Virus record (IMG/VR): IMGVR_UViG_3300005095_000072
Coordinates: 1-64,000 of that record
Reading direction: 5' to 3' (one strand)
Source: a virus
Length of the DNA: 64,000 nucleotides
Shown here: one piece after another, positions 19,936-39,936 of the stretch
Position numbering within the stretch: position 1 is the first letter of the stretch
How the letters are laid out: the number at the start of each line of letters is the position of its first letter
Made by a program: the position numbers and the translations under genes
The notes under the pieces: model-generated
What the model saw: only the letters and a program-made list of their open reading frames with translations
What the model was told of the DNA's origin: nothing
Database searches by the model: none

Positions 19936-19945
19936 TTATATCATA

Positions 19946-19980
19946 TTTAAGCTAGTTTTAAGTTTATTATGATATAATTA
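19946..19980 (+). promoter_or_regulatory. Conserved promoter P1
   Basis: TATAAT at 19973-19978 inside TATGATATAATTA, with TTTTAAG at 19956-19962 and a further TTTAAG at 19946. Almost the same 35 bases occur at 23267 and 31320. The TTTAAG-rich upstream element in place of a TTGACA box is the style of Campylobacterota sigma-70 promoters. It drives the leader and helicase gene that follow. Confidence 0.75.
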
Positions 19981-19984
19981 TAGA

Positions 19985-20383
19985 TGGTTAAAAAGTTAAA
20001 GCTCTTTGGCTATTGTTCTTTTTATGTTTATATTTGTTTAGAGAAAATTATAATATAAGTAGCTTTATATAAAAGTTTATGTAATCGCAATTTATATTCC
20101 ATAATATAGAGTTTCAAACTAAGTGCTATATAAGATTTGTTAGAAAAAATAATATAGAGGGCTGTTAAATGGCTATATAAAGCAAAAGTATTATAAAAGA
20201 GTATCAAAGTATATCTTAGTCATCTATGGCTCTTAGAATCTAGTTTAAGAGTGATTAAGATATATAATCAAGCAAATATAAATATATGTTCTTTAAAAAG
20301 ATAATGTTAAAAATCTAAATATTACTAAAGCTTATAGTATCTCTAATCCTTAAAGATTTTAAAAATTCTAATAAGGAAAGAAA
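19985..20383 (+). ncRNA. Long structured 5' leader, copy 1
   Basis: About 400 untranslated bases between P1 and the helicase start. Blocks shared in the same order with the leader at 31356-31771: GTTTAGAGAAA (20036), TGTTAAAT (20163) and the 19-base TTATAAAAGAGTATCAAAG (20191-20209). A hairpin after the first block (ATATAA-gtagc-TTTATAT, about 20053) has a counterpart with a different stem sequence in the second leader, which suggests a conserved fold. The 3' part carries the left panhandle arm (20314-20348). Function unknown; an expression or stability element for the downstream mRNA is inferred. Confidence 0.65.
20314..20348 (+). repeat. Left panhandle arm of helicase mRNA
   Basis: Bases 20314-20337 are the perfect reverse complement of 22331-22354 (24 bp), and after a small internal loop 20341-20348 complements 22322-22329 (8 bp). 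The arms flank the whole helicase gene, so the mRNA can close on itself. Confidence 0.75.
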
Positions 20384-22297
20384 ATGAAAAAATTTGATAA
20401 ATTTCAAAGAGATATTATAAATTATGAAGTAAAAGAGGATTCATGTCTTACAGTCCAAGCAGGTGCAGGTAGTGGTAAATCAACTACAATGGTCGGAAAG
20501 TGTATGAGATTGATTGAAGATGGATTAAATCCTAGTTCGATATTGATGACTACATTTTCTAATAAGTCTGTGAGAGATTTAAAACATAAATTTAAAGCAA
20601 TGTATCCTAATCAAATAAAGTTACCTCAGATAACAACTTTACATAGTTTTGGTATTTACCTTTTAAAAGAGGTTATAGGTCTTGATTTTAAAGTTATAAA
20701 TGAAAGTCAAGCTACTAAGCTAATGTTAGAGGTGTTAGAAGAGGAAGGCTTTTTTGAAGATGTAGAAGATAAGCAAAAATACCCTTTTGCTAAAACAGTT
20801 CAAGAATATATAGCTGTTTATAAAGAGCAGAACTTAGGGTATCTTGAAATATTGTCAGATAAAGACTTTGATATTTTTCAATATTCAAATGAAGTAACTA
20901 AGGTCTTTAATCGTTTTCAATTCTTAAGAATAGCAAAAGCATATCATAACAAAAAACAAAGTGAAGAGGTCTTAGACTTCGGAGATTTGGTATATGAAGC
21001 TTTTCATATCTTAAGAGAAAATGAAGAGATTTTAGAAGATGTTAGAAAAATGTTTAAGTTTGCTATAATCGACGAAGCTCAAGATATTAATCAAGTTCAA
21101 TGGGATTTGATTATGCTTATCTTTCAAGGAAAGAAACTTGTCGCTGTTGGTGATAGAGTCCAAAATATCTATAATTTTAGATATTCTATGCCTGAGAACT
21201 TTACTCCTGATTATTTAGGTAAATTTTTCTCTAATGTTAAAGAATTAGAGTTAAAATATAACTATAGGAGTAAAAAAGAGATAGTGGAATTTGGAAACAT
21301 TGTGAGAGTCATTGCAGGTAATACTTTGCAGTTGTTACCATATCAAGAGAGCAAACCTGACTCTGTGAGATTTGAAGCTGTATATGATAATGTACAAGAA
21401 GGTAATAAAGTTGCTGAAATCATAAAGGATTTGGTAGAAAATCAAGGTTACGATTATAAAGATATTAGTATAGTTATTCGTGGCAATGCTGTTATTAAAA
21501 CTATAGTTGAACCTTCTCTTATTAAAGAGAAAATCCCTTATCTTATTAAAAATAATACCACTGGGGCAAAAATGACAGATAGGCTTTCAACGGAGTTGTT
21601 TTTTAATGCTTTGTCTGTAGTCTATGATATAAATGATAAGTTTGCTTTTGTGGATTTTTTAAGAGAGTTGGATTATCCTTTGGAAGAAATAGAAAAAGTA
21701 TCAGATTTTCTGCAAAATAATCCTTTAGAAGATGTTACGAGCTTAGATGATGAGTTCATAACAGATTTGTATAATAATTTTGTATCTATGCATGATTTGC
21801 TTGATGGTTATGATAAAGTTGAAATCATCTTATCTGATATATATCATATTATTAAAAATAATGTAAATTCGGTCTATGGTGGGGATTTAAGTTTAGTGTA
21901 TAAATCTATTGTAAATCTTTGGTATAACATCAAGGCTGAAAATACAGAGAGTAGTATAAAAGAGACTCTCCAAGAGATGATAGTAAGGGTAAGAGATTTT
22001 GATGAAGCAAAAGAAGCAAACAAAGTACAGTTAGGAACTATCCATAGTTTTAAAGGATTGGAAAGTAAAGTATCTATAGTTTGTGGATTTACAAGCTTTC
22101 GCCCTAAGAAAGACCCTCTTAATGATGAAGCAAATATGCTTTATGTGCAAGTATCAAGAGCTATGGAAAAGCTATTTATAGTAAATAGCTACAATTTTGT
22201 TAGCAAGAATTTTAAAACAAGTGAAGGTTATATAAATGAGTATCTTTCAAGTGCTGTTTTAAAATATAAAAGGCTTAGAGGTTTGATAAGAGGTTAA
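20384..22297 (+). CDS. UvrD/Rep-like SF1A DNA helicase (copy with leader)
   Basis: 637 residues. Q motif region then Walker A G-A-G-S-G-K-S-T (27-34), motif Ia T-T-F-S-N-K-S, motif II I-I-D-E-A-Q-D near 227, motif III A-V-G-D-R-V-Q-N-I-Y-N-F, motif V G-T-I-H-S-F-K-G-L-E and motif VI Y-V-Q-V-S-R-A. This is a complete 3'-5' SF1A helicase of the UvrD/PcrA/Rep type. It is clearly paralogous to the gene at 26723, which shares the same motif variants. Unlike that copy it has its own promoter, a 400-base leader and flanking complementary arms. It uses ATC, GTC and CTC codons more than its neighbours, suggesting high expression. Confidence 0.85.
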   Translation: MKKFDKFQRDIINYEVKEDSCLTVQAGAGSGKSTTMVGKCMRLIEDGLNPSSILMTTFSNKSVRDLKHKFKAMYPNQIKLPQITTLHSFGIYLLKEVIGLDFKVINESQATKLMLEVLEEEGFFEDVEDKQKYPFAKTVQEYIAVYKEQNLGYLEILSDKDFDIFQYSNEVTKVFNRFQFLRIAKAYHNKKQSEEVLDFGDLVYEAFHILRENEEILEDVRKMFKFAIIDEAQDINQVQWDLIMLIFQGKKLVAVGDRVQNIYNFRYSMPENFTPDYLGKFFSNVKELELKYNYRSKKEIVEFGNIVRVIAGNTLQLLPYQESKPDSVRFEAVYDNVQEGNKVAEIIKDLVENQGYDYKDISIVIRGNAVIKTIVEPSLIKEKIPYLIKNNTTGAKMTDRLSTELFFNALSVVYDINDKFAFVDFLRELDYPLEEIEKVSDFLQNNPLEDVTSLDDEFITDLYNNFVSMHDLLDGYDKVEIILSDIYHIIKNNVNSVYGGDLSLVYKSIVNLWYNIKAENTESSIKETLQEMIVRVRDFDEAKEANKVQLGTIHSFKGLESKVSIVCGFTSFRPKKDPLNDEANMLYVQVSRAMEKLFIVNSYNFVSKNFKTSEGYINEYLSSAVLKYKRLRGLIRG

Positions 22298-22321: not shown

Positions 22322-22354
22322 GATTAGAGTCTATAAGCTTTAGTAATATTTAGA
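22322..22354 (+). repeat. Right panhandle arm of helicase mRNA
   Basis: Reverse complement of 20314-20348 (24 + 8 bp). It ends directly before the AGAGAGG ribosome site of the gene at 22366, so pairing could also affect translation of that gene. Confidence 0.75.
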
Positions 22355-22365
22355 GAGGTAAAAAG

Positions 22366-23271
22366 ATGAGTGAAAATCAAGATATAAAGCTGTTAGAAAA
22401 AACAGACGATTTACTATGGGTAGTAGAAAATGAAAAGTTTGTCTATGATAGTGGCAACTGGTTTTGTATAGCTGAAAGCTGTGAAGGTTGTGAGTATAAA
22501 GAGGTATGTCAGTATGAAGAAGATGAACTTGAAATATCTCTTATTAAAGCTACAAGACGAAATGTAGGGGCAGGGTTTAAGGAAGATATAGGAGATGAAC
22601 CATCTTCTGAGAAAATAGATATAAATAAATTAGAAAAGTATCAAAATAAACATCTTAAGTGGATTGATAATGAAAAAGGTTATTTACCTATAAGTAATAA
22701 GAGGATATATAAAAAGATTATAAATATAAAAGAAACCAACTATAAAAAGAATGAAATACCTTTCGTTTTATATAGTGAAGATGATGAAGCTTATTATTGT
22801 GTTAGACAAGTTTGTTCTAATTGTAAATATCTTGATAAGTGCAAGGTAGAGTTACAAGAGAAAGACTTTCAAATGTTAGTAGTGTCTAATGATATTCGTA
22901 GTCAAGAACCTAGAGGATTTACAATTTTATCTAAAGAACCAAATTGGGTTTCTGTCTTTGTTAACGACAATCTGAGACAGGAAAAAGGGTTATTAGATTT
23001 TATAGATTTTATTTTTAGAGAAGAGTTAAGGGTAGATGTAAAATCAGACCAAGCTTATTTTACATATCTTGATAATAGATTTTTCTTTGATAGAACTTTA
23101 CTTTATAAATTAAATTACAATTGTTTGAAATATCAAGAAACTGAAAAAGTAGAGTATAAGAGAGAGATAGAAAAGTTAATTAAACACTTTAAAGAAGATT
23201 ATAACAACTTTAAGGAAAATGAGTTAGGAAAAACAGTTAAAATAGCAAATATAAAAAATTTAAAGATTTAA
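22366..23271 (+). CDS. Protein with two tandem four-cysteine motifs
   Basis: 301 residues. Two copies of the pattern W/Y-x-C-x(4-5)-C-x2-C-x-Y-x(3)-C lie near 39-55 and 140-157, each followed by a beta strand with Leu/Val. Each may bind zinc or an iron-sulphur cluster; the spacing loosely recalls the Fe-S region of XPD/DinG helicases but no helicase core is present. The C-terminal 100 residues are helical and Lys-rich. Located between a helicase and the sigma-like gene. Unrecognised family. Confidence 0.45.
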   Translation: MSENQDIKLLEKTDDLLWVVENEKFVYDSGNWFCIAESCEGCEYKEVCQYEEDELEISLIKATRRNVGAGFKEDIGDEPSSEKIDINKLEKYQNKHLKWIDNEKGYLPISNKRIYKKIINIKETNYKKNEIPFVLYSEDDEAYYCVRQVCSNCKYLDKCKVELQEKDFQMLVVSNDIRSQEPRGFTILSKEPNWVSVFVNDNLRQEKGLLDFIDFIFREELRVDVKSDQAYFTYLDNRFFFDRTLLYKLNYNCLKYQETEKVEYKREIEKLIKHFKEDYNNFKENELGKTVKIANIKNLKI

Positions 23272-23301
23272 GCTTGTTTTAAAGTTATTATGATATAATT
23301 A
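23267..23301 (+). promoter_or_regulatory. Conserved promoter P3
   Basis: TATAAT at 23294-23299 within TATGATATAATTA; TTTTAAA at 23277-23283; TTTAAG at 23267. It overlaps the end of the upstream gene and leaves only a short leader of about 30 bases before the sigma-like gene, unlike P1 and P2. Confidence 0.7.
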
Positions 23302-23336
23302 AATATCTAAAAATTTTAAGGAAAAAGGTGGGTAAT

Positions 23337-24416
23337 ATGGCATTATATAAGACTATTGAAATTTTGGAAAAGTCTATATGGGAGCAGTTGAGAATAGCAG
23401 GATTAAAAGAGATAGCAGAACAAGAGAAAATAAATATAGCATCTCTTTTATGGAACTTATCTTCTAAATATTTATCGTATTATATAGAGGATATTAAAGA
23501 AGAACTTTTATATGATATGTTTGTTGATGTATATCTTAGAAAGTTGGAGCAGTTAGAAGAAACTTATAACAAGAAACAAAAATTATACACTTTCTTATAT
23601 AGTATAATGAAGAACTCTCTTATATATCATAGTAATAAAAGGTTACAAGTATTACAAATGCAAAAAGATGTAAATCCTATTGAAGACGAAAGTGAAGGTG
23701 AAGCTTGGGATAGAGTTACAATGGGTAAATCTTCTGTTAAAACTACATCCACTTATGGTGATGATTTATATTATGATAGTTTAATAGAGGATTATACTAA
23801 TCTTCTAAATAGTATTCTCCTTGAAGAGAGAGAAGTAGATAACCCTAAAAAAGTTATAGATAGTCTTAAAAAGAAAATAGATAAGCTTAAAGAACAAAAA
23901 TATAAAGCTGAGGGGTTTATGTCTAATGAAAAAATAGTATCTAGTAAGTTTGCAGATATGTATAGACCTGATTACAATGATATAGATGTAGAGGGAGAAG
24001 AAGATTATAAAAAATATGTAGATATGTTAAAAAATAAGCTGTTAGAGAAAGTTTATAAGTTCAGACAAGAATATATTAAAAGTTGGGATGATAAAAAGTT
24101 AAAAGTCATAGATTTACTAATTAATGATTTTTCTTTTAGTGAGATAGCATATCTGTATGGGGTAACAGGGGTTACTATTTCTAAGTGGGTAGAACAGATT
24201 AAAGATGCTTTTATAGAGGTAGGAGAAGAGTTAGAGTTTTTTACAGATGATAACTCTCTCATAAATTCTATCATAGATTGGCTAGATTGTGTAGATGAAA
24301 GTAAAAACACTAAAAAGATTTTAAGAATAGATATGAGTATCGTAGAACAAAATGTTTGTAATTTGTTTGGAGAAGACTTTCTTAGAGAGATAAAGCAATA
24401 TGAAAACAAAAGGTAA
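23337..24416 (+). CDS. Sigma-factor-like protein
   Basis: 359 residues from ATG 23337 (AAGGTGGG upstream; an in-frame GTG at 23328 overlaps that site). Residues about 55-105 resemble sigma-70 region 2: E-L-L-Y-D-M-F-V-D-V-Y-L-R, then L-Y-T-F-L-Y-S-I-M-K-N-S-L-I-Y-H. Residues about 250-290 form a region-4-like helix-turn-helix (D-F-S-F-S-E-I-A-Y-L-Y-G-V-T-x-x-T-I-S-K-W). An acidic linker of about 130 residues separates them. It could redirect host RNA polymerase to late phage promoters, as T4 gp55 does. It is transcribed from P3. Divergent, so a different HTH regulator is possible. Confidence 0.5.
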   Translation: MALYKTIEILEKSIWEQLRIAGLKEIAEQEKINIASLLWNLSSKYLSYYIEDIKEELLYDMFVDVYLRKLEQLEETYNKKQKLYTFLYSIMKNSLIYHSNKRLQVLQMQKDVNPIEDESEGEAWDRVTMGKSSVKTTSTYGDDLYYDSLIEDYTNLLNSILLEEREVDNPKKVIDSLKKKIDKLKEQKYKAEGFMSNEKIVSSKFADMYRPDYNDIDVEGEEDYKKYVDMLKNKLLEKVYKFRQEYIKSWDDKKLKVIDLLINDFSFSEIAYLYGVTGVTISKWVEQIKDAFIEVGEELEFFTDDNSLINSIIDWLDCVDESKNTKKILRIDMSIVEQNVCNLFGEDFLREIKQYENKR

Positions 24417-26722: not shown

Positions 26723-28720
26723 ATGAAACGACTTAAAAAGGCAAAAAGAAACACACTTATAAAAATTGATGGTGTTACCTTAGATAAATATCAAAGTAAA
26801 GTTTATAAGAAAAATATTGATAATAATGAAGCACTTATAATTCAAGCAGTGGCAGGAGCAGGTAAATCTACTACAATGATATATAAAGCTTATAGGTATA
26901 TTGTTAAAGATAAGGTAGAACCTGAAAAAATATTATTAACAACTTTTAGTAATAAATCTGCTAGAGATTTAAAGAATAAATTTAAAAAGGTTGCTAGAGG
27001 AAAGATAACAGGAAGTCCTATTATCACAACTATTCATTCTTTTGGTATTCATATTATTAAAAAATATTTAGGTAATACAACTCCTATCATATTATCTGAG
27101 TGGAAGTCAATATTACTTATAAGAGAGATAGCAGATGATATAGGTTTATTTGTAACAGAAGACGATATACCATTAAAAAAGAAAGAGCAAACTGTAATAG
27201 CTAGAAAAATCTATGAAGCTTTAGACTATTTAAAATCTAATATGATAATAAATAGTATTGATAAGTTCAAGGAAAAAGACTTTAATATTCACGATTACAA
27301 AAACTATGAAGCTTATTTTACTTCTATAGCTTTTAATGAAGTTGCATACAGGTATGAAAAGCAAAAAGAAAAGTTAAAGATGTATGATTACCACGATTTA
27401 GTTTTTAAGATATATTCTATATTAGTTCATCAACCTACAATATTGAAAAAAGTCAAAAAAGATTTAGAAGTATTTATTATAGATGAAGCACAAGATTTAG
27501 ACAGTTCTCAATGGGCTATGCTGTTGCTGTTAGCTAAAGGAAAAAAGCTCATAGCTGTTGGAGATAAAATGCAGAACATATATAATTTTAGATATTCTGT
27601 ACCTCATAATTTTACTGTAGAGTATTTATCAAAACATTTCAAAAAAGTTCATAAGTTACCTTTGGTAAATAATTATAGAAGTACAAAAAATATAGTAAAT
27701 GTTTCTAATTTAGTCCGTAAGTTATATAAGGATGAGTTAGAAGCTGTAGCTATAAAAAGCAAAGAACAGAACTCTGTTAAGATAATATATGCTAGAAGTA
27801 ATATCCAAGAGGGTAAATTAATAACTGACAATATAAAAAGATTGAGAAAAGAGGGGTATAACTATAAAGATATAACTATCATCTGTAGGAGTAATAGTTA
27901 TATAAAAACTGTAGTTGAACCTGCTTTAGTTAGAGACAATCTACCATATAATATTTTAACTAAGTCTGTCGCTAAGAAACTAACAGATAAAGTATCTAAT
28001 CAAATATACTTCAATATTTTATCATTAATAGTTAATCCAAATGATTTTACAGCTTTAGCAGACTTATCTGCTTATATTAGAGATTGTGGGGAGAAATTTC
28101 AAAACGATTTAACTAAACAATTATTAAAGTATGGTGATATAAGGAAAGTTAGATTTGATACTAAACAGGCTAAATATAAGCTAGATAAAGTAATAAAAGT
28201 ATATCAGTATATATTTGCTATAAGAAAGAATTTAAGGTCTGTAAATGAAATGCACAAAGCTTTAGATGTTATATCTTATTTAGTTCGCTCAGAGTTCAAG
28301 GAAGATATATTATCAAAGAAAGAACAAGATACTATTGAAAAGGTTATTACTAATTGGGTTAATTATTATGCTAAGGACGGCATAGTAGATGTATTTGAGA
28401 ACTTAAATCAAGTACTATTCGAGATAGATAGTTTTGATGAAGACGAAGAAGTGGATAAAGTTAAGGTAGGAACTATTCATTCTCAAAAAGGACTTGATAA
28501 TCCTGTTTCTATTGTATCAGGCTTTAATACATATAAGCCAAGATCAGACCCTTTAAATGATGAGTGCAATATGTTATATGTACAGTTATCTCGTGCAGTA
28601 GATAAACTAATAATAATAGTTTCAGATAAGTATGTCTTAAAAGATGGAACTGTGTTAAATGGTAATATATTAGCTCCTATGAAAAAGATATTAGATGTCG
28701 TTTATTTTAATAAACAGTAA
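26723..28720 (+). CDS. UvrD/Rep-like SF1A DNA helicase (second copy)
   Basis: 665 residues. Walker A A-G-A-G-K-S-T (44-50), T-T-F-S-N-K-S-A, I-I-D-E-A-Q-D near 252, A-V-G-D-K-M-Q-N-I-Y-N-F-R-Y-S, G-T-I-H-S-Q-K-G-L-D and Y-V-Q-L-S-R-A. Motif wording closely matches the helicase at 20384, so the two arose by duplication. This copy is translated from an ordinary ribosome site 14 bases after the truncated polymerase gene, with no leader or arms. A fork or repair helicase. Confidence 0.85.
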   Translation: MKRLKKAKRNTLIKIDGVTLDKYQSKVYKKNIDNNEALIIQAVAGAGKSTTMIYKAYRYIVKDKVEPEKILLTTFSNKSARDLKNKFKKVARGKITGSPIITTIHSFGIHIIKKYLGNTTPIILSEWKSILLIREIADDIGLFVTEDDIPLKKKEQTVIARKIYEALDYLKSNMIINSIDKFKEKDFNIHDYKNYEAYFTSIAFNEVAYRYEKQKEKLKMYDYHDLVFKIYSILVHQPTILKKVKKDLEVFIIDEAQDLDSSQWAMLLLLAKGKKLIAVGDKMQNIYNFRYSVPHNFTVEYLSKHFKKVHKLPLVNNYRSTKNIVNVSNLVRKLYKDELEAVAIKSKEQNSVKIIYARSNIQEGKLITDNIKRLRKEGYNYKDITIICRSNSYIKTVVEPALVRDNLPYNILTKSVAKKLTDKVSNQIYFNILSLIVNPNDFTALADLSAYIRDCGEKFQNDLTKQLLKYGDIRKVRFDTKQAKYKLDKVIKVYQYIFAIRKNLRSVNEMHKALDVISYLVRSEFKEDILSKKEQDTIEKVITNWVNYYAKDGIVDVFENLNQVLFEIDSFDEDEEVDKVKVGTIHSQKGLDNPVSIVSGFNTYKPRSDPLNDECNMLYVQLSRAVDKLIIIVSDKYVLKDGTVLNGNILAPMKKILDVVYFNKQ

Positions 28721-31290: not shown

Positions 31291-31319
31291 TCTTATAGAA
31301 AATTCAAAATTATATTAGA

Positions 31320-31355
31320 TTTAAGCTAGTTTTAAGAATTAGTATGGTATAATTA
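31320..31355 (+). promoter_or_regulatory. Conserved promoter P2
   Basis: TATAAT at 31348-31353; TTTTAAG at 31330-31336; TTTAAG at 31320. The first 17 bases (TTTAAGCTAGTTTTAAG) are identical to P1. Drives the second long leader. Confidence 0.75.
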
Positions 31356-31771
31356 TCTTAGATAAAGAGGTAAAAGGCTTTATCTATGTTCTTTATCTTT
31401 ATGGTGTTTAGAGAAATTTTATAAGCTAGTATGCTTATATGAAGATTTAAGTAAATCCAAATCATCTAAGCTTTAGGTGGTGGGGTGTTAAATTGGATTA
31501 TAAGAGGAAATCTTATAAAAGAGTATCAAAGCTTAAGAGGTTTAATAAAAGCTCTTATATCTCAATTCTATTAAGATATAATGGTAAATCTTTTGAGTAT
31601 TCAAGCATTATAAAGATAGTGTTATTTAAAAATTTAATGTTAATTGGAAATATCCTTTATAAGGCTAGTTCCTTAGTCATAAAAAATATCTATCTATTTA
31701 TGCTTATTTTTATAAGTAGGTATAGATAGGTTAAATCCTAAAATTTTAAAAATTCTTATAAGGAGCAAATT
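31356..31771 (+). ncRNA. Long structured 5' leader, copy 2
   Basis: About 415 untranslated bases. Shares GTTTAGAGAAA (31406), TGTTAAAT (31486) and a 19-base identity (31513-31531) with the leader at 19985. Visible hairpins: 31359-31367 with 31378-31386 (9 bp); ATAAGC-tagtat-GCTTAT about 31421; AATCCA about 31455 with TGGATT about 31494, enclosing an inner stem; ATAAGA-ggaaa-TCTTAT about 31500; TAAGAG with CTCTTA about 31534-31557. The 3' part holds the left panhandle arm 31643-31678. A 78-codon TTG-started frame inside is probably chance. Confidence 0.65.
31643..31678 (+). repeat. Left panhandle arm, 31772 mRNA
   Basis: Pairs base for base with 32589-32624: 36 consecutive pairs, of which five are G-U or U-G in the + strand RNA and none is a true mismatch. 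This strand-specific wobble points to selection on RNA. Confidence 0.85.
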
Positions 31772-32581
31772 ATGGCAGAGAAAAAAGGAACTAGTTTAGT
31801 AGGTAAAGTTGTTGAAGTTGGTGGAAAAGAGTATAAAGTCATCGATGAAACAAAAAGTGTTCTTAAATGTGAGGATTCAAAAGGTGTTACAAAAAATATC
31901 TTAAAGAAAGCAAAAGCATTTAAAAGCTTAAAAATCATTGGTGATGCAGAAGCTCATGAGGCTAAAGAAACAAAAAAACCTACAAAAGAGGAGAAAGAGG
32001 TCGAGAAAAAATCATCTCCAAAAGCTGAGGTAAAACCTGTTGCTAAAGAGATAGACCCTGATGAGTGGGATAAGGAAAGTGGAAAACTTCTCTTAGAAGC
32101 TGAAGCAGAGGGGCAAGATAGTCCAGACTTCCTTTATGAGAGTTATCGTCATGTTGAGTTTTGGGTATATTCAATCCAAAGAGCTACAAAGGCTCAGAGA
32201 GTAGAATATATAAAAGCAAAGCTCAAAAAAGAGGGTAAAAATAGTCCATTTGGATTAATGTTATCTTCTTATAAAAGAGGTAACAAAATCAATCTTGATA
32301 GAGCGAAGCTCATCGATATGGTTTTAGTTGATAGAGTGCAAGAAGGTAAAAGAGTCAAAAAGCTAAATGTTGCTAAAATCATGGAAGAGCTTGATAAGCT
32401 TAAAGGTAGAAGTAGAAGCAAAATCAAGAGAGAAGAGTATGAAAGACTTATTCATCTTGTTCCTGATGACGGTATCGATGGTTTTCAAGGTTGGGCTTTC
32501 TATATGATAAGTGGAGAGTTTTACAGAGATATAGGTCTTAAGCTTACAACTAAAGAGCTTGAAGCTTTTGATTTATATTAA
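31772..32581 (+). CDS. Hypothetical protein enclosed by RNA panhandle
   Basis: 269 residues, family unknown. Residues 5-50 look like a small SH3/KOW-type beta barrel (G-K-V-V-E-V-G-G-K-E-Y-K-V-I), followed by a Lys/Glu linker (60-100) and a helical C-terminal domain (115-269) with W-V-Y-S-I-Q-R and F-Q-G-W-A-F-Y. Rich in Lys, likely nucleic-acid binding. Codon choice (ATC, GTC, CTC, CTT) differs from surrounding genes, suggesting strong expression. It has its own promoter, a 415-base leader and flanking complementary arms. Probably an abundant early protein. Confidence 0.6.
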   Translation: MAEKKGTSLVGKVVEVGGKEYKVIDETKSVLKCEDSKGVTKNILKKAKAFKSLKIIGDAEAHEAKETKKPTKEEKEVEKKSSPKAEVKPVAKEIDPDEWDKESGKLLLEAEAEGQDSPDFLYESYRHVEFWVYSIQRATKAQRVEYIKAKLKKEGKNSPFGLMLSSYKRGNKINLDRAKLIDMVLVDRVQEGKRVKKLNVAKIMEELDKLKGRSRSKIKREEYERLIHLVPDDGIDGFQGWAFYMISGEFYRDIGLKLTTKELEAFDLY

Positions 32582-32588
32582 GATATAA

Positions 32589-32624
32589 GGCTAGGGAGCT
32601 AGTCTTATAAAGGATATTTTCAAT
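32589..32624 (+). repeat. Right panhandle arm, 31772 mRNA
   Basis: Pairs with 31643-31678 over 36 bases. It begins seven bases after the stop codon and ends 26 bases before the next start codon. Confidence 0.85.
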
Positions 32625-32650
32625 ATTCTAAAAATTCTAAGGAGTAAATC

Positions 32651-33289
32651 ATGAGTTTAAAAGTTAGAAAGTTAGGTGACTATGGTTGGGCTGTATATAA
32701 AGATAGTAAAGTAGAATTTACTGTTAATGGTTTAACTGACCTAGTAGATAATCTAAGGAATATAGGGTTAGAGGATAAAGCAATAAACTCTATGATAGAT
32801 GAAGCTAACCTATTTGCTAATAAATGGTATATGGGTATAGATTTAGAGTCAGATGGAGTTTATCCTGATGAACCTACCTATGTTGATTGGATATATGAAT
32901 ATGAGAAGTTTAATGATAAGTTCGGCTATAAAGATTGGAGAGAGCTTAGGTTAGCTTTAGCAAAAACTGACTATAGTAAGCTGTCTGATATAGAAAAACA
33001 AGCTTATGGAAAGTGGGAAGTCTATGAAATAGAGGAGAAAACTGCTACAGCTTGTTTTGGCTGTGTTAAAAGTATGGCTAAGGTTGTTAGTTTAGGAAAT
33101 ATGCAAAAAGTTATAAGCTCCATCCCTAAAGAGTATCATAGCTTACCTGTAACATTGGATTTGGATAGAGATTACACTTGGAGTGAAGTAGAGAGAATCT
33201 TTGTAGTTTCTAAGGGGGATTTAGAATTAAATGAATGTAGTTTCTTTATGTATGAAGGCTGTCAAGTTATCATTGAAGGAGGTGCATAA
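32651..33289 (+). CDS. Hypothetical protein
   Basis: 212 residues, acidic, soluble. Contains a T-A-C-F-G-C-V cysteine pair near 136-139 and several Trp residues (W-Y-M-G-I-D-L, W-I-Y-E-Y, W-R-E-L). Start preceded by TAAGGAGTAAATC. It is the last gene before a strong terminator at 33295, so it probably ends the P2 transcript. No family recognised. Confidence 0.45.
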   Translation: MSLKVRKLGDYGWAVYKDSKVEFTVNGLTDLVDNLRNIGLEDKAINSMIDEANLFANKWYMGIDLESDGVYPDEPTYVDWIYEYEKFNDKFGYKDWRELRLALAKTDYSKLSDIEKQAYGKWEVYEIEEKTATACFGCVKSMAKVVSLGNMQKVISSIPKEYHSLPVTLDLDRDYTWSEVERIFVVSKGDLELNECSFFMYEGCQVIIEGGA

Positions 33290-38831: not shown

Positions 38832-39239
38832 ATGTATCCTTCTGATATTTTTAGAAAAAGTGTCTTTTTAGTTATAGTATTAACTTTTGTGGGGATACCT
38901 TTATATAAGTCAGTAGCAGACAGACCTTTGATAGAGAAATATAGTGAAGGTGTTATGACTAATGTATCTCCTACAAAGCTATCTCATAAAGGTTGGTATT
39001 GGAAAACTTGGGAGGGGTGGATACCTTTAGGTATGACTTCTGATGGTGATGGTAATCCTATGCTTGATAAGTGGTATTTTAGTATAGATAATGTTTCTAA
39101 TCAAAAAGAGATTATATCTTGTATAAGAAACAATAAAAGAGTTAATCTTTACTACACTGATAATATTATAGTTCCATACAAACTAGGAGAAGACCATTTA
39201 GTATATAAATGTGAACCATCAAATAAAGATAAACAGTAG
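38832..39239 (+). CDS. Membrane-anchored protein of the KTWEG family
   Basis: 135 residues. One N-terminal transmembrane helix or signal (about 10-28), then Y-S-E-G-V...K-L-S-H-K-G-W-Y-W-K-T-W-E-G. This matches the Y-S-x-G-x-R-x-G...K-x-S-x-K-G-x-x-x-K-T-W-E-G signature of small exported proteins found in bacteria and phages, whose role is unknown. AAGGAGG site two bases after the preceding gene. Confidence 0.5.
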   Translation: MYPSDIFRKSVFLVIVLTFVGIPLYKSVADRPLIEKYSEGVMTNVSPTKLSHKGWYWKTWEGWIPLGMTSDGDGNPMLDKWYFSIDNVSNQKEIISCIRNNKRVNLYYTDNIIVPYKLGEDHLVYKCEPSNKDKQ

Positions 39240-39252
39240 GGTAAAACCTCTG

Positions 39253-39315
39253 TTTATCTCACTTAAGTAATTAAGGTTGTATTGTAGTAAGTATAAATTG
39301 TTTAAGTGAGATAAA
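39253..39315 (+). promoter_or_regulatory. Stem sequestering endonuclease VII start; possible late promoter in loop
   Basis: 39253-39266 (TTTATCTCACTTAA) is the perfect complement of 39302-39315, and the stem ends at the base before the ATG at 39316, so any mRNA starting upstream would hide the ribosome site. The loop contains TATAAAT at 39292-39298. A transcript starting about seven bases later would lack the left strand and be translatable. This mirrors the established control of T4 gene 49. Confidence 0.65.
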
Positions 39316-39936
39316 ATGGGTAAAGAACAGCAAAAGATACAGCTTAAAAGATTAAGGAAATTAAAACCTCTAGGAAATCAAGCACAGAGAGATTTTAAGT
39401 ATCCTTTGTATCAAATGTCAAATAAAGATATTAAAGAGGTTAGAGAGCTGTTATATGAAGAACAAAAAGGTATATGTCCTATATGTGAATATAAGATTGA
39501 TAAGAGTATAGCAGTATTAGACCATCTTCATAAAGAGAAAGGACAAGTAAATGGAGAAGATGGAGCAGGTGCTATCAGACAAATGCTCTGTTTTCAATGC
39601 AATTCTCTTGATGGCAAATTGTTAAAACAGTTTCAAAGGTCAGGGCTTAAGAAGTATATAAAGTTCGACCATTGGGTGGAAAATTATTTAAGATATATAA
39701 GAAAAAAACCTAAATTGATAAAAGGAAAGTTATATATCCACCCAACAGAAAAAGAAGATGATTTATATATGGGGAAACAGTTATTCAATAAATTAAATAA
39801 ACTGTATAAAGAAAAATATCCTAATAGAAAACCTTTAGAAGTACCTAAAAGTATAAAAACTAGAGGAAAGTTTAGGGGTAAATGGAAGATAACTAAAAAG
39901 TGGGAAGATTTGTTAAAGGAGTTCAACCTTGAATAA
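39316..39936 (+). CDS. Recombination endonuclease VII (Holliday junction resolvase)
   Basis: 206 residues. The endonuclease VII signature is complete: C54-P-I-C57, then V-L-D69-H70-L-H72, a G-x-V-x-G segment and L-C92-F-Q-C95-N96. The four cysteines hold zinc and the D-H-x-H/N residues form the His-Me catalytic site. A helical C-terminal part follows, as in T4 gp49. It resolves branched DNA before packaging. Adjacent to recA and helicase genes; its start is buried in a perfect stem (39253-39315). Confidence 0.8.
   Translation: MGKEQQKIQLKRLRKLKPLGNQAQRDFKYPLYQMSNKDIKEVRELLYEEQKGICPICEYKIDKSIAVLDHLHKEKGQVNGEDGAGAIRQMLCFQCNSLDGKLLKQFQRSGLKKYIKFDHWVENYLRYIRKKPKLIKGKLYIHPTEKEDDLYMGKQLFNKLNKLYKEKYPNRKPLEVPKSIKTRGKFRGKWKITKKWEDLLKEFNLE

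Follow-up and report, generated by a model that had tools for sequence, protein, structure and literature searches.

Two structured leader RNAs in one phage genome, each joined to a long predicted duplex that encloses a single gene

A tailed phage genome carries, in two places, what appears to be a duplicated cis-acting RNA structure: a structured untranslated leader joined to a panhandle, a long duplex whose arms lie on either side of one gene. Judged from sequence comparison and folding, this structure is real. To our knowledge, pairing across an entire bacterial or phage gene is known in few cases. We suggest, with a probability of roughly 0.4, that each duplex is an RNase III processing stem separating the leader RNA, the enclosed gene, and the downstream operon.

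The window analyzed here is a stretch of 64,000 bases, positions 1 to 64000 of a linear virus record of 118,425 bases in total. Nearly all genes of the record are carried on the + strand, and a tailed phage gene set is present (terminase, tail sheath, baseplate, and ribonucleotide reductase). The locus of the original finding (gene 31772) is referred to as copy B and the second locus (gene 20384) as copy A. Their features are as follows.

Copy A
19943 to 19978, + strand: promoter, a match to the same promoter sequence as in copy B
19984 to 20013, + strand: 5'-terminal hairpin H1, from the fold, 12 pairs
20023 to 20286, + strand: P1-closed domain (20023-20039 with 20270-20286; 20041-20042 with 20268-20269)
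20192 to 20209, + strand: junction segment, same sequence as that of copy B
20209 to 20221 with 20253 to 20265, + strand: P4, inside the P1 domain
20314 to 20337, + strand: left panhandle arm, 24 pairs with 22331-22354, all Watson-Crick
20384 to 22297, + strand: enclosed gene, superfamily 1 DNA helicase, 637 aa (PHROG 1967, E 1e-70)
22331 to 22354, + strand: right panhandle arm, overlapping the next gene's ribosome-binding site (gene at 22366)
22366 to 23271, + strand: next gene, 68 nt past the enclosed gene

Copy B
31318 to 31353, + strand: promoter, ATTTAAGCTAGTTTTAAG ... TATGGTATAAT, from its sequence match to the other copies
31359 to 31386, + strand: 5'-terminal hairpin H1, 9 pairs, mean pair probability 0.89
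31393 to 31619, + strand: P1-closed domain (31393-31409 with 31603-31619; 31411-31412 with 31601-31602)
31514 to 31531, + strand: junction segment TATAAAAGAGTATCAAAG, 18 nt, identical in both leaders
31531 to 31598, + strand: hairpin domain P4 (31531-31543 with 31586-31598), with a 7-nt bulge and inner stem P4b
31620 to 31643, + strand: linker TGTTNTTTAAAAANNTAATGTTAA before the left arm, 21 of 24 positions identical with 20287-20310
31643 to 31678, + strand: left arm of the panhandle, 36 pairs with 32589-32624
31692 to 31731, + strand: hairpin between the left arm and the ribosome-binding site, 18 pairs with G-U
31772 to 32581, + strand: enclosed gene, 269 aa, predicted N-terminal small beta domain at residues ~12-58
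32589 to 32624, + strand: right arm of the panhandle, beginning 8 nt past the stop codon of the enclosed gene
32651 to 33289, + strand: next gene, 69 nt past the enclosed gene, with ribosome-binding site AAGGAG at 32640

The pairing of copy B was first proposed in an initial annotation of this DNA, and its coordinates proved exact. Its 36 pairs ran on without a mismatch; 31 of them were Watson-Crick and 5 were G-U or U-G. The loop that it closes was 910 nt (31679-32588), of which the coding region makes up 810. When + strand helices with partners at most 1.5 kb apart were searched for in the 64-kb window, this was the longest mismatch-free helix (G-U allowed). The runner-up had 20 pairs, and the best helix under the opposite-strand pairing rule had 18. 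When the full transcript of copy B was folded, the panhandle reached a mean pair probability of 0.99, and the duplex energy was -52 kcal/mol, versus -7 and -17 kcal/mol when the two arms were folded locally. The alternative fold of the left arm was a weak local hairpin, and that of the right arm was a local 11-pair hairpin (32584-32609). The ribosome-binding site of the enclosed gene (31760-31766) followed the left strand of the duplex after about 80 nt. Elsewhere in the window, a 20-pair hairpin including G-U (39253-39272 with 39296-39315), without a T run, occupied the gap between genes 38832-39239 and 39316-39936.

For a genome-wide ranking, each of the ~140 genes of the 118-kb record was scored by the best helix between the 250 nt upstream and the 150 nt downstream of it. 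Copy B ranked first with a score of 74.5 and copy A second with 53, while the third-ranked gene scored 34. Comparison with dinucleotide shuffles bore out the copy B helix (Gumbel p ~4e-10) and gave ~3e-6 for copy A and ~7e-3 for the third-ranked gene. A chance origin of the panhandles was excluded by the helix lengths, the ranking among ~140 genes, and the shuffle p-values. The panhandle of copy A contained no G-U pairs, also had a pair probability of 0.99 in its folded full transcript, and lay about 35 nt upstream of the ribosome-binding site of its enclosed gene (20371-20377).

The arms occupied the equivalent position in both leaders, with the right arm between the enclosed and the next gene at both loci. 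Their sequences were unrelated between the copies, and alignments were no better than those of shuffles. Cross-pairing between the arms of copies A and B scored 14.5 and 12.5, versus 74.5 and 53 for the true partners. The arm sets are private to each transcript. Since the arms stand at the same place but neither cross-pair nor align, the pairing was kept while the sequence was not.

In the initial annotation, the fact that every departure from perfect complementarity in copy B was G-U or U-G had been taken as proof of an RNA duplex. For five of five transitions to be G-U, P was ~0.03 under symmetric mutation and ~0.05 with the actual strand composition. The + strand is G-rich (GC skew of 0.17-0.44 over 18-34 kb), a composition that favors G-U over A-C, and therefore this argument is weak; copy A, moreover, offers no G-U pair to add to it. 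The G-U-only pattern is suggestive, and the case is carried by the comparison of the paralogues. The broader proposal of an RNA feature around one gene was well supported by the second panhandle and the covariation of the leaders, though not by the G-U pattern from which it had been argued.

The leaders of genes 31772 and 20384 were homologous, untranslated, about 400 nt long, and placed behind the same promoter. They were also the longest untranslated leaders in the genome, if a 78-codon TTG frame at 31493 is taken as spurious. The alignment z score was 12.5 with the promoter included, 8.6 for the transcribed part (global), and 9.0 from the start site to the left arm, and a leader profile search of the 118 kb matched only copies A and B. 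The two leaders were folded separately and then compared. The folds concurred in a hairpin at the expected 5' end, which in copy B begins at the transcript start deduced from the -10 box, followed in both leaders by a domain closed by P1, whose 17 pairs are extended by two more beyond a bulged A. Inside this domain, the 13-pair P4 led through a bulge of 7 nt to an inner stem carrying a conserved GCUCUUA. The junction segment preceded P4, and its exact matches in the window were only those at 20192 and 31514. In both leaders, P1 was followed by the conserved linker and directly afterward by the left arm. Also conserved between the copies was the ribosome-binding region (AATCCT..ATTTTAAAAATTCT.ATAAGGA) that separates the left arm from the start codon.

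Between copies A and B, P1 showed 9 double compensatory changes, 1 single change, and no broken pair, and P4 showed 8, 2, and 0, respectively. Over the 32 pairs of P1 and P4, this amounts to 12 unchanged, 3 single, 17 double compensatory, and 0 broken. A full-leader MAFFT alignment misplaced the P4 region, and equal-length core segments were substituted for it. In the gapless alignment of these cores, including the inner stem, 98.7% of the cells were paired. None of 500 shuffled controls reached any of the covariation measures, and slid versions were 39-54% paired. The comparison is one of two paralogous copies in one genome, but it still provides good evidence for a conserved RNA fold, because the helices are anchored by the conserved junction sequence.

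The host-type promoter (ATTTAAGCTAGTTTTAAG..TATGATATAAT) was present in five copies in the record, at 19970, 23291, 31345, 65936, and 73218. From its -10 box, transcription of copy B would start at ~31360. The copies at 23291, 65936, and 73218 (the last two in record coordinates) preceded short leaders and genes without a panhandle, and the gene behind the first of these (23328-24416) gave a weak sigma-factor match. A minus-strand extended -10 sequence at 19943 overlapped the promoter of copy A; its source was the palindromic TTATATCATA...TATGATATAA. A search of IMG/VR for the promoter pattern gave no matches. The same pattern stood before the tRNA-Phe gene of a Campylobacteraceae genome. In addition, a Campylobacterales genome contained contigs from a related phage whose terminase was 43-44% identical, and the gene order of the early-region block was the same in these contigs as in the window. 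The host of the phage is probably a Campylobacterales bacterium, because both the promoter pattern and the related phage contigs occur there.

Both leaders preceded long + strand operons. The protein encoded by gene 31772 had no match in Pfam or PHROG, and its AlphaFold model (mean pLDDT of 46, reaching ~75-80 only at residues 11-40) was too poor for a structure search. The helicase enclosed in copy A has a paralogue, since 20384-22297 and 26723-28720 both encode superfamily 1 helicases (38% identical); of the two, the panhandle encloses only 20384-22297.

Two relatives were available for comparison. One, found by a terminase alignment search, was the 55.8-kb IMG/VR contig IMGVR_UViG_3300005264_000018 (terminase 66% identical), which covers the structural half only. 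A homing-endonuclease-like gene that occurs once in the present record (record bases 95094-96671; L006:11094-12668) had five matching places in that structural half. The other was a distant relative, phage L060, whose helicase was 34% identical. An ortholog of gene 31772 was found in L060 (6429-7259; pairwise E 4e-6) with the same gene order, between the orthologs of 26723 and 33749, and behind a 340-nt leader. On this gene order, 31772 is not a mobile cassette but a core gene in its ancestral position. The L060 ortholog had no panhandle, its best enclosing helix (21.5) being at chance level, and its leader neither aligned to the leaders of copies A and B nor contained a similar leader RNA. 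No gene of either relative had an enclosing helix above 29. The leader and panhandle would thus be either an addition specific to this lineage or a structure lost in L060. Because the ortholog has neither a panhandle nor a similar leader RNA, the arrangement is inessential for gene 31772. Arms that diverge without compensation in related phages had been named in the initial annotation as evidence against the pairing. Such divergence was seen, but only in this distant relative, and that phage is also without the whole leader RNA. Ahead of the ortholog of gene 24400, L060 has ~760 nt (949-1710) without a + strand reading frame of 50 codons; this region folded better than shuffles (z -2.7), had no relevant Rfam match, and is possibly another large structured phage RNA.

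Wider searches returned no further copies. No match at gathering score was found in the window with Rfam 15, including group I and II introns, HEARO, GOLLD, ROOL, and riboswitches, and nothing relevant appeared when the two leaders were compared with Rfam 15 at E values up to 5. The 18-nt junction motif was found in 10 IMG/VR contigs, none of them in a leader context and apparently all within coding sequence. A covariance model built from the two copies recovered only copies A and B in this genome and the fetched relatives; it gave 0 matches in 399 Campylobacterales genomes, which is a weak negative given strict filters and a two-sequence model. A search of 397 genomes from the phylum with a profile built for the 31772 protein gave no match, and single-protein searches of IMG/VR (31772, 36002, 20384, and terminase) and the alignment of the two helicases did not yield a relative.

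If the duplexes are processing stems, the two transcripts, regarded as early on account of their host-type promoter, would each begin with the structured untranslated leader, continue into the left arm, and reach the right arm past the stop codon of the first gene. Once the right arm is transcribed, an uninterrupted RNA duplex of 24-36 pairs would form in the cell, long enough to be a substrate of RNase III. Cleavage would free the leader RNA and turn the first gene into a separate single-gene message with the helix ends as its borders, while the downstream operon would gain a new 5' end near its own ribosome-binding site. The first gene would thereby be uncoupled, in both level and lifetime, from the operon that follows, comparable to rRNA precursors and T7 early messages. 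RNase III is known to cut the duplexes flanking 16S and 23S rRNA as well as the 49-nt stem R1.1 of T7 mRNA (PMC8708148), and in Campylobacter jejuni it processes an sRNA precursor via an intramolecular duplex (PMC8687705). A long, near-uninterrupted duplex flanking the released unit, as expected of such a stem, was found at both loci, with 36 and 24 contiguous pairs. Pairing may be delayed by ribosomes on the enclosed gene and by the local hairpin of the right arm.

Several other roles were considered. The 5' hairpin, the structured leader, and the panhandle could together block exonucleases, namely, RNase J from the 5' end and 3'-5' enzymes from the end past the gene, so that the first message outlives the rest with no need for cleavage of the duplex. 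A hairpin at the inferred start site of both leaders and the enclosure of exactly one gene by the duplex in each copy are in line with this, as is the position of RNase J as the main RNA degradosome enzyme in Helicobacter, in the likely phylum of the host (PMC8322730). However, long duplexes without interruptions are themselves substrates of RNase III, and a short 3' hairpin would be equally protective without reaching back to the leader; we regard protection as rather unlikely. Alternatively, the panhandle could exchange with local hairpins and so make the ribosome-binding site of either the enclosed gene or the one after it more or less accessible, a mechanism with a known analogue in icaR (PMC3868564). 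In folds of the leader plus 40 nt, pairing of the conserved AATCCT with the ribosome-binding site AAGGA was predicted at 67%, and in copy A the right arm touches the corresponding site of the following gene. Control of the next gene, as suggested in the initial annotation, nevertheless did not hold for both copies: the stem ends 12 nt before the next start codon in copy A and 27 nt before it in copy B, and the ribosome-binding site is overlapped in copy A only. The computed access of the ribosome-binding site, without and then with the right arm, went from 0.44 to 0.16 in copy B and from 0.18 to 0.37 in copy A. These opposite shifts ruled out a simple ribosome-binding-site switch, and translational control seems unlikely.

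It is also conceivable, by analogy with the put RNAs, that the leader is a processive antitermination or RNA-polymerase-binding element, to which the panhandle is an accessory, for example for leader release. There are exactly two similar leaders, behind two of the five promoter copies and both heading long + strand operons, and the 18 nt of the junction segment are unchanged between them, in contrast to the covarying helices. In HK022, P_L and P_R are likewise each followed by a put RNA, and the two are similar (PMC9378689). However, put is ~70 nt with two stem-loops, compared with a branched domain of ~260-300 nt here; intrinsic terminator candidates in the region were at the chance level (4 found versus 3.9 expected), and the gene-enclosing arms are left unexplained. 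We consider such a role quite improbable. Even less credit is due to a DNA-level inverted repeat without RNA function, whether as the terminal repeats of a cassette, an invertible segment, or a template-switch product. The repeats do flank single genes, and template switching is able to create perfect inverted repeats. Against this, copies of a mobile element would have the same terminal repeats, whereas the arms neither cross-pair nor align beyond shuffles, a result hard to reconcile with a single element or recombinase. Moreover, the left arm forms a corresponding part of both leaders, in which RNA helices covary, and the enclosed gene 31772 holds its place in L060, hence is no recent cassette. 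A DNA element or cassette was rejected on account of the unrelated arms and the ancestral place of the gene in the relative.

Among known systems, the panhandle would work most like the RNase III stems of rRNA precursors, in which a duplex before and after a long unit likewise closes a loop in a longer transcript (PMC8708148). There the loop is rRNA, whereas here it is a translated phage gene and cleavage is inferred. In the icaR mRNA of Staphylococcus aureus, sequence past the gene base-pairs with the 5' leader of the same message, spanning the coding region, and the result is a possible substrate for RNase III, as it may be here (PMC3868564). The icaR pairing is a short motif over the ribosome-binding site, in contrast to the 24-36 pairs found here upstream of it; neither left arm contained the ribosome-binding site of its enclosed gene (31760-31766 and 20371-20377). 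The put RNAs of phage HK022 are similar in that a single phage has a pair of related structured leaders, both preceded by early promoters (PMC9378689), and the present leaders are also two sequence-related copies behind two promoters taken to be early. The put RNAs, with ~70 nt and two stem-loops, have no gene-enclosing arms, and the leader domain here, ~230-265 nt, consists of a closing helix and branches. The aapA1 type I toxin mRNA of Helicobacter pylori, which shares its phylum with the likely host, adopts a long-distance 5'-3' fold and is inactive until its 3' end is processed (PMC8322730). Type I toxin mRNAs encode hydrophobic toxins of ~30 aa and are paired with an antisense RNA, unlike the 269-aa protein and the 637-aa helicase encoded here, neither of which is a short hydrophobic peptide.

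Long-range pairing and structured leaders in cis are thus known, and the RNA fold, which is absent from Rfam, appears to be new. Two unrelated genes of one phage share a common structured leader with compensatory changes, and each has its own long enclosing duplex. More tentatively, and with doubt prevailing, we propose a new class of phage RNA: a leader with a conserved branched core, ending in a stem that holds an entire gene in its loop, used twice with privately matched arms as a general device to cut out or insulate single genes from polycistronic transcripts. The two loci should lend themselves to clean tests of how single genes are kept apart within long phage cotranscripts in hosts with RNase J-based mRNA decay.
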